Shown here in pieces: positions 1 to 44,000 of a DNA stretch of 64,000 nucleotides (position 1 is the first letter of the stretch; each line of letters begins with the position of its first letter). Below the pieces are notes generated by a model, which was given only the letters and a program-made list of their open reading frames with translations, was not told the origin of the DNA and searched no databases. A program made the position numbers and the translations under genes. The stretch is from an uncultured Kiritimatiellota bacterium (GTDB lineage Bacteria; Verrucomicrobiota; Kiritimatiellia; RFP12; DVOR01), in assembly GCA_944391055.1 (NCBI GenBank), contig CALXSF010000011.1:1-64000 (forward strand), in the 5' to 3' direction.

Positions 1-74
1 ACCTCGTCTTGTGCGCACAGAGCTTTGCCTGCGAAAAGAAGAACTACAAGAAAAGCAAAAAACGTGGTTTTCAT
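1..74 (-). CDS. Secreted protein, N-terminal fragment (runs off left edge)
   Basis: Only the first 24 codons lie in the window. They encode a textbook signal peptide: a short lysine-containing n-region (MKTTFF), a hydrophobic core (AFLVVLLFAG) and an ALCAQ-type cleavage region. A purine-rich GGGGGAG ribosome site sits directly before the ATG at 74, and a good sigma70-like promoter lies upstream. The codons are AT-richer than the window average, as in the low-GC strip near 34-35 kb. It is exported, but nothing can be said about the mature protein. Confidence 0.6.
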   Translation of the reverse strand, partial: MKTTFFAFLVVLLFAGKALCAQDE

Positions 75-38066: not shown

Positions 38067-40709
38067 ATGCTGAACTTTAAGGACTTGGACACGCCCAGCC
38101 TCATCAAATGGGCGATTTTGGCCGTCTTGGCGGCCTTCTCGTGCTATGTCACCTTCCCGGCCAAGGAAAAGGTGCGCCTCGGGCTGGACCTTCAGGGCGG
38201 CACCAGCTTCACCGTGCAGATCGACGAGGCGAAGCTGACCGAGGACCTCAAGGCCCAGGGCTTCGCCGCCGCCGGCGTCACCCCCGAGACGGCCACCCCC
38301 GAGCAGATCGCCCAGATCGAAAGCAAGGCCAAGGCCGACGCCCAGGCCGCGATGACCGACGCCGACGACCTCACCCTCGAGGTGCTCCGCAAGCGCATCG
38401 ACGCCATCGGCACCAACGAGCCCATCATCGCCAAGGCCAACGGCCACCGCATCCTCATCCAGATCCCCGGCGCCGACGCCGCCAAGGCCCGCGCCGCCGA
38501 GGAGAGCGTCAAATCCGCCGCCTTCCTCGCCTTCCGCCTCGTCCACCGCGACAACGACAGCCTCTCCCGCGCGGTGCTCGACTCCAACCGCACGCCCGCG
38601 GGCTTCGTGCGCAGCAACTGCGACGGGCGCGACTGCTTCGTCCGCGGCGACGACTACGCCGCGCTCTCGGCCGAGCCCGACTTCATGGTGAAGCTGGGCC
38701 GCTTCGCCGCCCCCTCCGCCCTCTATGAGTGCGTGATGGAGGAGATTGGGCGCGACCCCGCCGGGCGCGTGGCCTACGTGCCCTGCTTCGTCTCGCGCAG
38801 CCAGAGCACCACCGTCAGCGGCTCCACCGTCACCCGCGCCACCCCGAACCGCAACACGATGACCGGCAAGACGGTCGTCGACGTCGAGTTCGACAGCGAG
38901 GGCGCCAGGGCCTTCGCCCGCATCACCGGCAACTACGTAGGCCGCCAGCTCGCCATCATCCTCGACGACGTGGTGCGTTCCGCCCCCGTCCTCCGCTCCG
39001 AGATCACCGACGGCCGCTGCGAGATCTCCGGCAACTTCGACTGGAAGAGCGCCACCGAGCTCGCCGGCGTGCTGAACGCCGGCGCCCTCAAGGCCCCCAT
39101 CCGCATCATCGAGACCCGCTCCGTCTCCCCCAGCCTGGGCCAGGAGGCCATCTCCAAGGGCGCGCTCGCCAGCGCCATCGGCGTGGTGGCGGTCTTCGCC
39201 TTCATGATCTTCTACTACCTCTTCTGCGGCATCATCGCCGACGTGGCCCTTCTCCTCAACGTCATCCTCTGGCCCGCCGGCATGATCATCGCCAGCGGCA
39301 TCATGAGCGTCTTCATCACCGACGGCACCGGCTCCACCTCCCTTGGGCAGCTGCCGGTGCTCACCCTCCCGGGCATCGCCGGCCTGGTCCTCTCCGTCGG
39401 CATGGCGGTGGACGCCAACGTGCTCATCTTCGAGCGGATGCGCGAGGAGTTCCGCCTGGGCAAGACCGCCAAGGCCGCCGTGGCCGCGGGCTACGAGCGC
39501 GCCTTCCTGGCCATCTTCGACTCCAACCTCACCACCCTCATCACCGGCGTCATCCTCTTCATCTTCGGCTCCGGCCCCATCCGCGGCTTCGCCGTCACCC
39601 TCTGCGGCGGCATCATCATCTCGATGTTCACCGCGCTGGTCGTCACCCGCCTCATCTTCAACCTCATCGTCCAGGACACCACCAAGCCCTACAAGATGCT
39701 CCAGTGGGTGCCCGAGACCATCAACTTCGACTTCCTCCGGTGGGCAAAGCCCCTTGCCCTCGCCGCCCTCGCCGTCATCGTCGTCACCGTCGGGCTCTTC
39801 CTCTTCCGCGCCACGAAGAACCCCTCCAGCGTCATGGCGGTGGACTTCACCGGCGGCCTCTCCCTGCTCTATGAGGCCACCCTCAAGTCCGACGGCTCGA
39901 ACGTCGCCCTCGACCCCGACCAGGTCCGCGCCATCGTCGACGGCATCGAAGGCATCTCCGACCCCACCGTCCAGAACGCCACCGCCGAGAACGGCAAGAT
40001 CCAGACCCTCGTCAAGACCGCCGTCACCGAGGTCAAGGGCAAGGACGGCCAGACGATCGCCTCCGAGGAGGCCATCCGCCGCGCCATCGACGAGGCCACC
40101 CCCGACTACAACGTCGTCATGGTCAGCCGCGACCAGGTCGGCTCCCAGATCGGCTCCGAGCTCAAGCGCGACGCCGTCTGGTCCATCGCCCTCTCCCTCA
40201 TCATGATCATCGCCTACGTCTCCTTCCGCTTCCAGTTCGGCTTCGCCCTCGGCGGCGTCGTCGCCCTGGCGCACGACGCGCTGATCACCCTGGGCGTCTA
40301 CACCCTCTGCGGCAACCAGGTCAGCCTCACCACCGTCGCCGCGCTCCTCACCATCGTCGGCTACTCCATCAACGACACCATCGTGGCCTACGACCGCGTG
40401 CGCGAAATCATGGCCCGCGAGCCCGACCTCGACTTCCCCACCGCCATCCGCAAGGGCCTCAACCAGACCCTCAGCCGCACCCTCCTCACCACCCTCTCCA
40501 CCCTCATGCCCGTGGCCGCGCTCTACTTCTTCGGCGGCGCCGCCATGCACGACTTCGCCTTCGCGCTCTTCGTGGGCATGGTGGCCGGCACCTACTCCAC
40601 GCTCTTCATCGCCCCCTTGGTGACGGTGGCGTGGTACCGCGGCAAGCGCCCCCTCACCGCCGAGCAGCGCGCCGCCGCCCGCGCCGCCAAGCTCGCCGCC
40701 AAGCCCTGA
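38067..40709 (+). CDS. secDF: Fused protein-export membrane protein SecDF
   Basis: An 880-residue fusion of SecD and SecF, the proton-driven pair that pulls proteins out of SecYEG. The SecD half has TM1 (about 12-30), the periplasmic P1 domain beginning [17 protein letters not shown], the [16 protein letters not shown] block and the membrane core with [13 protein letters not shown]. The SecF half begins near residue 550 ([14 protein letters not shown]), has [12 protein letters not shown] and the core [15 protein letters not shown]. Fused SecDF occurs in several phyla. The stop codon is only 6 bases before tRNA-Ser. Confidence 0.96.
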
Positions 40710-40715
40710 GCCCAA

Positions 40716-40803
40716 GGAGGGGTGGCAGAGCGGTCGAATGCGGCGGTCTTGAAAACCGTTGAGCCGCGAGGCTCCGGGGGTTCGAATCCCTCCCCCTCCG
40801 CCA
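40716..40803 (+). tRNA. tRNA-Ser (anticodon UGA)
   Basis: An 88-base class II tRNA. Acceptor GGAGGGG/CCCCTCC, anticodon stem GCGGT/ACCGT with loop CTTGAAA (anticodon TGA, codon UCA), a long variable arm (GAGCCGCGAGGCTC), T-arm around GTTCGAATC, and encoded CCA. It starts 6 bases after the secDF stop with no promoter of its own visible. Confidence 0.97.
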
Positions 40804-40810
40804 CAAACCA

Positions 40811-40839
40811 AAGCCCCCGGCGCCGCCGGGGGCTTTTTT
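40811..40839 (+). terminator. Terminator after tRNA-Ser
   Basis: AAGCCCCCGGC (40811-40821) pairs with its full complement (40825-40835) around a 3-base loop and runs into T6. It would end the yajC-secDF-tRNA transcript. Confidence 0.85.
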
Positions 40840-40880: not shown

Positions 40881-40910
40881 TTGACTTCCAGGGGCCGGGT
40901 GTGCTATCTT
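40881..40910 (+). promoter_or_regulatory. tRNA-like promoter of candidate ncRNA
   Basis: An A5 tract (40872-40876) precedes TTGACT (40881-40886), an 18-base spacer and GTGTGCTATCTT (hexamer 40905-40910). The build is like that of the tRNA-Ala promoter, which has the same -10. Predicted +1 is about 40917. Confidence 0.65.
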
Positions 40911-40916
40911 TCAAGG

Positions 40917-41055
40917 CGGTCAATGCGGGACTACTCCACCCCACCACCACCCGCATTGGCCCTGGGCCGGAGGCCCTCCGTCAGGTATGCCGATTCCTTC
41001 CCCCACCCGAATCGGGCAGATTAGACCACGGAGGATTCCCTCCGGCCCCCTTTTT
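40917..41055 (+). ncRNA. Candidate structured ncRNA, about 139 nt
   Basis: A complete transcription unit with no plausible ORF. Hairpin I has a 12-bp stem with one G-U pair (40918-40929 with 40950-40961) and a 20-base loop containing no G (ACTACTCC then CACC repeats). Hairpin II is a long rod: 10 bp (GGGCCGGAGG 40964-40973 with 41039-41048), then CCTCCGT/ACGGAGG (40975-40981 with 41028-41034), then an apical stem (40988-40996 with 41009-41018) capped by a 12-base C-rich loop, ending in T5 (41051-41055). hrpA has its own promoter 19 bases further on, so this is not simply its leader. It lacks the SRP GGAA tetraloop region. 6S RNA or an unknown small RNA are the alternatives. Confidence 0.6.
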
Positions 41056-41073
41056 CGCCCTCCGCGCACGTGC

Positions 41074-41079
41074 TATAAT
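41074..41079 (+). promoter_or_regulatory. hrpA -10 box, leaderless start
   Basis: CGTGCTATAAT; predicted +1 is 41086, one base before the ATG at 41087, with no ribosome site. Confidence 0.6.
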
Positions 41080-41086
41080 CCCGCCC

Positions 41087-44000
41087 ATGACCGCCCGCCT
41101 CTCCATCCCGCCCGAACTGCCGATCGCCGCCCATGCGCAGGCGCTCCTCGCCTCCCTGCGCGACAACCCCGTCACCATCGTCTGCGGCGACACCGGCAGC
41201 GGCAAGACCACCCAGCTGCCGAAGCTCGCCCACCTGGCCCGCCCCGGCGCGCGCGGGCTCATCGGCGTCACCCAGCCCCGGCGCCTGGCCGCCGTGGCGA
41301 TGGCGCGGCGCCTGGCCGAGGAGGTGGGCTCGCCCCTCGGGGGGCTGGTGGGCTATCAGCACCGCTTCGAGCGCAAAACCTCGGCGCAGACCCGCTTCAA
41401 GCTGATGACCGACGGCATCCTGCTGGCCGAGACGCGCGACGACCCGCTCTTCCGCCGCTACGCCACGCTGATCATCGACGAGGCCCACGAGCGCTCCCTC
41501 AACATCGACTTCCTCCTTGGCCTCCTGCGCCGCGCCCTGCCGCGCCGCCCCGACCTGCGCGTGGTCGTCTCCTCCGCCACCCTCGACGCGGAGCGCTTCG
41601 CGGACTTCTTCGGCGGCGCGCCCGTGATCACCATCCCCGGGCGCCTGTACCCCATCGAGACCGTCTGGCTGCCGGAGGGGGAGGACGAGGAGGACGACCT
41701 GCCGCGCCGCGTCGCCGACGCCGTCGACCTGCTGGGCCCCGAGAGCGGCGACATCCTCGTCTTCCTCCCCGGCGAGCGCGACATCCGCGAGTGCATGGCC
41801 TTCCTGGAGGGGCGGCGCCTGCCGCGCACCGAGTGCCTGCCCCTGCTGGCCAGCCTGCCGCCCGGCGAGCAGGCGCGCGCCTTCCGGCCCTCCGCCAACC
41901 GGCGCATCGTGCTGGCCACGAACGTCGCCGAGACCTCCGTCACCATCCCCGGCATCCGCGCGGTCATCGACTCCGGCCTGGCGCGCATCCGGCGCTACTC
42001 GCCCCAGCGGCACGTCCAGACCCTGCGCGTCGAGCCCATCAGCCAAGCCAGCGCCCGCCAGCGCATGGGGCGCTGCGGCCGCGTCGGCCCCGGCACGTGC
42101 GTCCGCCTCTACTCCCAGGAGGACTACGCCCGGCGCGAGGCCCACACCGCCCCCGAGATCCGGCGCACCGCCCTGGCCGGCGTCATCCTCACCATGGCCG
42201 ACCACCGCTTCGGGCGCATCGAGGACTTCCCCTTCATCGAGCCCCCCGCCGGCGCCGCCGTCCGCGAGGGCTACCGCGAGCTGCTGGAGCTCGGCGCCCT
42301 GCGCCGCGACGCCTCGGGCGAAGGCTTCGCCCTCACCGGCATCGGCCGCGCCCTCGCGGCCTTCCCGGTCGAGCCCCGCTTCGCGCGCATCCTCCTGGCC
42401 GCCGAGAGCGAGCAATGCCTCCGCGACGCCCTGACCGTCGTCGCCGCGCTCGCCTGCGACGACCCGCTCCTGCGCCCCCTCGACAAGGCCGCGCAGGCCG
42501 ACCAGCAGCACGCGCGCTTCCGCTGCCCCAACAGCGACTTCTCCGGGCGCCTCCGCCTCTGGGCCTGGTGGAACGACGCCTCCCAGGGCGTCAGCGAGAC
42601 CCAGCGCCGCCGCCGCTGCAAGGCCGCCTTCGTCAGCTACCCCAAGATGCGCGAATGGGCCAACGTCCGCGCGCAGCTCCTGGATCTCTGCGTCGAGCGC
42701 CGCCTCCATGCCGACGACGCGCGCGGGGGCGAGGCCGGGCTCCACCGCGCCCTCCTCTGCGGCCTGCTCTCCCGGATCGGCCATTACGACCGCGAGGCGC
42801 GCGACTACCGCGGCGCCTTCGCCGTCCGCTTCGCCCTCTTCCCCGGCTCCGCCCTCGCCAAGGCCGAGCGCCGCGAGCGCGGGCGCCCCGCCCCGCCCGC
42901 CCCCGCCCGGAAGCCCCGGGGCGACGTGCTCCCGGAATCCCGCGAATGGGTGCTCGCCGGCGAGCTTGTCGAGACCTCCCGCCTCTTCGGGCGCACCTGC
43001 GCCTGCATCGACCCGGCGTGGGTCGAGCCCATCGCCGGCCCCCTCTGCAAAATCCACCGCCACTCCGCCTTCTGGGATCCCGACCACGGCTTCGTCCGCG
43101 TCCACGAGGACGTCACCCTCTTCGGCCTGCCCCTCGCCAAGGGGCGGCTCCGGGATCTTTCGCGGATCGACCCCGAGGCCGCCCGCCGCTTCTTCATCGC
43201 CGACGCCCTCGCCGTCCCCGACGCCCTGCGCAACCCGCCCCCCTGGCTCCGCGCCAACTGGGAGCGCCAGCGACTCCTCGAGCAGCTCACCGCCCTGCGC
43301 CGCGACGCCCGCGACACCCTGCGCGAGGCGCTCCTGGCCTTCTACGAGGCCCGCCTGCCCCACGACGTCTGCAACGCCCCCGGCCTGCGCAAGTGCCCCC
43401 CGCTCCCGCTCGAGGGCCCCGCCTTCGACGTCGACGCCGCCAGCCTCCGCGACTTCCCCCAGACGCTCACCGTCGCCGGGCACGCCTTCCCCCTCGTCTA
43501 CCGGCACGACCCGCAGGCCCCCGACGACGGCGTCACGCTCGTCGCCGACCCCGAGCACCTGCCCCTGCTCCGGGGGTTCCACGCCGAATGGCTCGTCCCC
43601 GGCCTCCTGCCCGAGAAGGTGCTCTGGCTGCTCAACGCCCTGCCCAGCCGCGTCCGCCACGTCCTCGGCCCCCTCCCCGAGCTTCAGGCCCTCGTCCTCT
43701 CCCGCGCCAAGCCCTACGCGCGCCCCCTCTCCGAGACGCTCTTCCGCATCCTGCGCGACGAGAAGGGCGTCCGCGTCGACGAGACCCCTTGGGAGGAGGA
43801 TCGCCTCCCGGCGCACCTGCGCATGAACTTCCGCGTCGAACGCGACGGCGAGGTGCTCGGGCAAGGCCGCAACCTCGCGCCGCTCCTCGACCTCTTCGCC
43901 CCCCAAAGCGCGGCGCCCGCGCCCCCCGCCGCCGCCCTCGCCGACCCCGCGCAGGCCCGCCTCGCCCACCGGCGCGAATGCCTTGCCGGGCTCCGGGGCT

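Follow-up and report, generated by a model that had tools for sequence, protein, structure and literature searches.

The 64,000-nt window analysed here, the whole stretch of DNA taken from contig CALXSF010000011.1 of an uncultured Kiritimatiellota bacterium, contains, in this order, secDF, tRNA-Ser(TGA) and its strong terminator, then a promoter, a small RNA, and hrpA, with neighbouring genes named by reading their translations. tRNA-Ser(TGA) (40716..40803, plus strand) is the upstream neighbour and lies, with its own terminator (~40812-40839), outside the RNA gene. The promoter (40881..40910, plus strand) comprises a -35 hexamer, TTGACT (40881-40886), an 18-nt spacer, and an extended -10, TGTGC-TATCTT, with the -10 itself at 40905-40910. 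An earlier sequence-only reading of this DNA had described TTGACT and the 18 bases ahead of the RNA; both were found, together with the additional TGn extension of the -10. This was the sole promoter-like site within 501 bases; shuffles gave 0.0. Matches to TTGACN-16..18-TANNNT that also carry TGn ahead of the -10 are rare, occurring 22 times in 1.26 Mb of this genome on both strands. The same reading had also placed a separate -10 for hrpA directly after the RNA, and this box (TATAAT, 41074..41079, plus strand) is present in extended form (TGCTATAAT, 41071-41079), 7 nt before the hrpA ATG at 41087, marking hrpA as a separate transcription unit.

The small RNA spans 40917..41055 on the plus strand (~139 nt), with its 5' end placed from the position of the -10. 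At -64.9 kcal/mol, its predicted minimum free energy lies far below the -44.2 +/- 3.7 kcal/mol that dinucleotide-shuffled sequences give (z -5.60, with 0 of 200 shuffles as good), which bore out the 12-bp hairpin, 20-nt G-free loop, and three-step rod ending in T5 that had been described from the sequence. Hairpin P1 (40918..40961) has a 12-bp stem, 40918-40929 paired with 40950-40961, closed by C-rich loop 1, ACTACTCCACCCCACCACCA (40930..40949, 20 nt). The rod (40964..41048) stacks P2, P3, and P4 (10 + 10 + 7 bp) and is followed by U5. P2 (40964-40973/41039-41048) forms its base, P3 (40975-40986/41025-41034) contains a bulge at 40982-40983, and P4 (40990-40996/41009-41015) presents C-rich loop 2, CTTCCCCCACCC (40997..41008, 12 nt). 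All of these elements are on the plus strand. Both loops had been expected to stay single stranded, and each has a predicted unpaired probability of at least 0.9; their longest C runs are 4 and 5. The intrinsic terminator (41039..41055, plus strand) consists of the 3' strand of P2 and then CC-T5. A simple terminator scan over the RNA gene reported no site because, instead of a short hairpin, the base of the entire rod serves as terminator stem.

When 59 genomes, comprising this genome (G000) and its relatives, were searched at the DNA level, one true homologue was recovered, in a species of the same genus (G007). The homologue is 77% identical over window positions 40881-41055 (query positions 12-186), a block that opens exactly with the -35 hexamer and closes with the final T of the terminator, while alignment of the 150 bases on each side of this block is at about shuffle level. 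Third codon positions in the two genomes are 65% (hrpA) to 76% (secDF) identical. The G007 promoter has the same hexamers at the same 18-nt spacing, with 25/30 positions identical.

Automatic MAFFT alignment misplaced the stems, and the two copies were instead aligned by hand, N-padded, and each row checked against the source DNA. This alignment was placed by eye in knowledge of the structure and leans towards it, and the fold derives from one of the two sequences; within these limits, all 76 scorable pairing cells across the two copies were standard. The paired arms, where the sequence-only reading had proposed a search for compensatory changes, differ on both sides at 8 of 39 pairs, and all pairs are kept in G007; this covariation comes from only two sequences. 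Seven of the double changes are in P3 (7 of its 10 pairs) and one is in P1 (GC to CG), which also has a one-sided change; P2 and P4 are invariant. When the 3' partners were slid by 1-3 columns as a control, 33-49% of cells paired and 0-2 both-sides changes were seen. Seven double changes in a ten-pair helix point to selection on pairing and would be hard to explain otherwise. The best conserved unpaired parts are the two loops: the 13-nt core of loop 1, CTCCACCCCACCA, is identical at 13/13 positions, and loop 2 at 10/11, with one base change and one length change giving CTACCCCCACC in G007.

No described family accounts for this sequence. In a scan of the window with Rfam 15 at its thresholds, only tRNAs reached threshold; with relaxed cutoffs, the RNA and its homologue drew only matches far below gathering scores, at chance level. 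The description of the element as an undescribed structured RNA therefore stands, with no Rfam match above chance, compensatory changes, and exact ends at promoter and terminator. We are highly confident that it is a real RNA gene.

On balance, we favour a clade-specific, trans-acting sRNA that would use its two C-rich loops to pair with G-rich mRNA sites, by analogy with the actinobacterial 6C/B11 RNAs but without belonging to 6C. We infer that a sigma-70-type extended -10 promoter of its own drives synthesis of a ~139-nt transcript, which would end at the terminator formed by the base of the long rod. The rigid stems would present the two C-rich loops as single strands, and these may pair in trans with G-rich stretches of particular mRNAs, probably without Hfq, lowering the translation or stability of the mRNAs bound. 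The pairing mechanism, which is borrowed from 6C/B11, is the uncertain part of this explanation.

C-rich UCCC loops that pair with mRNA start regions are also found in the staphylococcal Rsa sRNAs. The present RNA resembles these in its C-rich single-stranded loops but differs in that no sequence or model similarity to them was found and a preference for start regions is absent here. In actinobacterial 6C/B11, which has two C-rich loops, either loop alone represses a reporter by pairing with the ribosome-binding site (PMC10470900), and a chaperone screen found none to be needed (PMC8628891). The likeness lies in two hairpins with C-rich loops, a stand-alone gene, and a host without known Hfq (PMC10470900, PMC4046766, PMC8628891); loop pairing with G-rich mRNA sites would be a further likeness, predicted for the present RNA by analogy only. 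6C RNA has two stem-loops, typically with six or more consecutive C per loop (PMC4046766), whereas the loops here, CCACCCCACC and CCCCCACC, have runs of only 4 and 5 in place of at least 6. In addition, the second hairpin here caps a long three-step rod, which doubles as the terminator, and the host belongs to another phylum. The 6C covariance model gave no match at E<=10 for the RNA or its homologue. Because the model is unmatched and the C runs are too short, the RNA is not filed as 6C on present sequence evidence. Acido-Lenti-1 RNA (RF01687), known from Lentisphaerae and Acidobacteria (PMC2864571), is likewise a structured RNA from the same phylum but was not reported by the Rfam scans of the RNA and its homologue.

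The sequence-only reading had likened the loops to those of small RNAs that bind Shine-Dalgarno sites. A Shine-Dalgarno-like motif was present in both genomes at 136 of 287 conserved start regions, about half, so such sites exist for the loops to bind. Because the genome is GC-rich, initial gene calls landed in antisense frames; they were redone with HrpA, SecDF, YajC, and VWA gene seeds and then orthologues. With these home-made calls, which covered about half of each genome and could miss a handful of specific targets, pairing of either loop with start regions was no better than that of shuffled loops of matched composition, in G000 or G007 singly. Across 272 orthologous start-region pairs, loop 1 gave 10 at -12 kcal/mol or better compared to 8.8 +/- 4.5 for shuffled loops, and loop 2 gave 5 compared to 8.4 +/- 3.8. 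These results therefore do not support binding of Shine-Dalgarno sites as a general rule, and with it a broad anti-Shine-Dalgarno action; the loops may instead pair with a small number of specific mRNAs or bind a protein. We discarded an 11-nt perfect match to loop 2 lying upstream of a G007 gene, as it overlaps a likely -10 box and is probably outside the mRNA. The complement of loop 1 at one mismatch was ~1.7-fold (G000) and 1.9-fold (G007) commoner than a reversed control, an excess that we did not take as evidence: the three exact matches outside the RNA gene were all in G007, and none was at a start codon.

Hfq (PF17209) was not detected in any of 17 genomes of the genus, while five control genomes were positive. 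More tentatively, we propose that this is a new sRNA family of an uncultured clade that may have converged on the two-C-rich-loop plan of 6C/B11 and may regulate in trans without a chaperone, its lineage having no detectable Hfq. With no described sRNA matched and no Hfq detected in the genus, a bounded, structure-conserved gene offers a handle on RNA regulation there, and the RNA bears on whether regulators with C-rich loops have evolved repeatedly. If the gene is real but the mechanism is wrong, it would be one more lineage-specific sRNA, which is a common kind.

The strongest alternative, unlikely but deserving some weight, is that the RNA is a protein-binding decoy whose C-rich loops titrate a single-strand-binding regulator (for example, a cold-shock or KH-type protein), much as sponge RNAs with GGA loops titrate CsrA. 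Such a decoy would suit two similar, rigidly presented loops that keep their sequence while P3 drifts and that show no preference for start regions. However, the two loops have only short C-rich motifs in common, GGA loops for CsrA are absent, and no candidate binding protein was identified.

Much less probable is a divergent SRP or 6S RNA, the housekeeping RNAs of the lineage. None of the Rfam models for 6S, small SRP, and large SRP RNA has a match in this genome, which leaves these RNAs unaccounted for. However, 15 of the 17 species in the genus have no detected copy of the present RNA, and these include its five nearest relatives, at 87-95% completeness. The RNA and its homologue do not match the SRP models (RF00169, RF01854), and the SRP domain IV loop (CAGG ... 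GGAA ... AGCAG) is absent, with CAGG not kept in G007, in agreement with the earlier observation that the conserved SRP loop is missing. The 6S model (RF00013) is also unmatched, and both the large central bubble and the wide conservation of 6S are absent. The Rfam comparison proposed for these two families thus returned no match. Because models and motif are unmatched and the RNA was not found in most of the genus, it appears to be neither SRP nor 6S RNA. As a separate observation, RF00169 had no match in the G000 and G007 genomes, RF01854 none in 17 genomes, and RF00013 none in this genome; the SRP and 6S RNAs of the genus have either diverged or slipped past the first-look filter.

R1, a covariance model of the two copies, scored 157 bits here and 135.7 bits in G007, both sequences being in the model. 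Among 17 genomes of the genus it found these copies, one in each species, and no detectable copy in the 15 others, which shows that the genus as a whole does not depend on the RNA. With the stricter filters used for the larger searches, no true copy beyond the two was found in 145 genomes of the order or 288 genomes of the class. One weak match (27.8 bits, G020) was rejected because it reads as a coding gene and has no rod. A pattern for the loop pair, run over GTDB contigs, had its only true match in G007; matches in Peptococcaceae CEB3, Sandaracinobacteroides, and an alphaproteobacterial MAG were rejected as background or for having no model score. Loop 2, searched loosely across the genus, matched no more often than its reversed control. 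In a HrpA+SecDF tree, the two carriers are sisters (support 0.71) and adjoin a clade of five species, their nearest relatives, in which the RNA was not found. Since the carriers are sisters, one origin is enough: a single gain in their common ancestor would explain the distribution, as would a copy that the other clade has lost or that has diverged strongly there.

An RNA of a selfish or mobile element, such as a plasmid or phage antisense RNA or an insertion passenger, would account for the narrow distribution and the differing positions in the two species, but is improbable. The loop-pair pattern had no match in IMG/VR, and phage and plasmid records contained no match to the RNA. No adjoining mobile gene was seen, the gene is single copy, and the distribution fits descent in sister species.

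We regard a cis-acting leader or attenuator of hrpA as very improbable. The RNA lies just upstream of hrpA here, and its description as an element between tRNA-Ser and hrpA is true of this genome, but the position is incidental: the G007 gene is flanked instead by heavy-metal ATPase-like and glycosidase-like genes (by reading), away from hrpA. Several relatives have a -10-like box a few bases before the hrpA ATG with no RNA adjoining it, and elsewhere in the genus the order secDF, tRNA-Ser, terminator persists where the RNA is lacking. Given the other neighbours in G007 and the -10 that hrpA has of its own in relatives, the RNA is very probably a stand-alone gene and not an hrpA leader. It has its own promoter and terminator, is non-coding, is conserved in structure, and is positioned independently of its neighbours, which fits a stand-alone intergenic bacterial sRNA gene from which a discrete transcript is predicted. 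Least probable of all is a small peptide gene of 33 codons, from the first ATG in the P1 stem to a TAG in the internal loop: this genome has one such open frame, but in G007 it stops after 11 codons, indels are not multiples of three, and the kept features are base pairs and not codons, so that a conserved peptide is, on comparison of the two copies, already refuted.

The neighbouring genes gave three further observations. The block from secDF through tRNA-Ser(TGA) to its terminator (window 38067-40839) is kept across most of the genus, and the sequence after the terminator differs in each species. Within secDF, ARAGORN called a tRNA-Asp on the minus strand (39881-39976), which is probably false because the Rfam scan does not report a tRNA there. 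At the start of hrpA (window 41071-41089), the close spacing between the extended -10 and the ATG is alike in several relatives, and hrpA mRNA is therefore probably leaderless in the genus.
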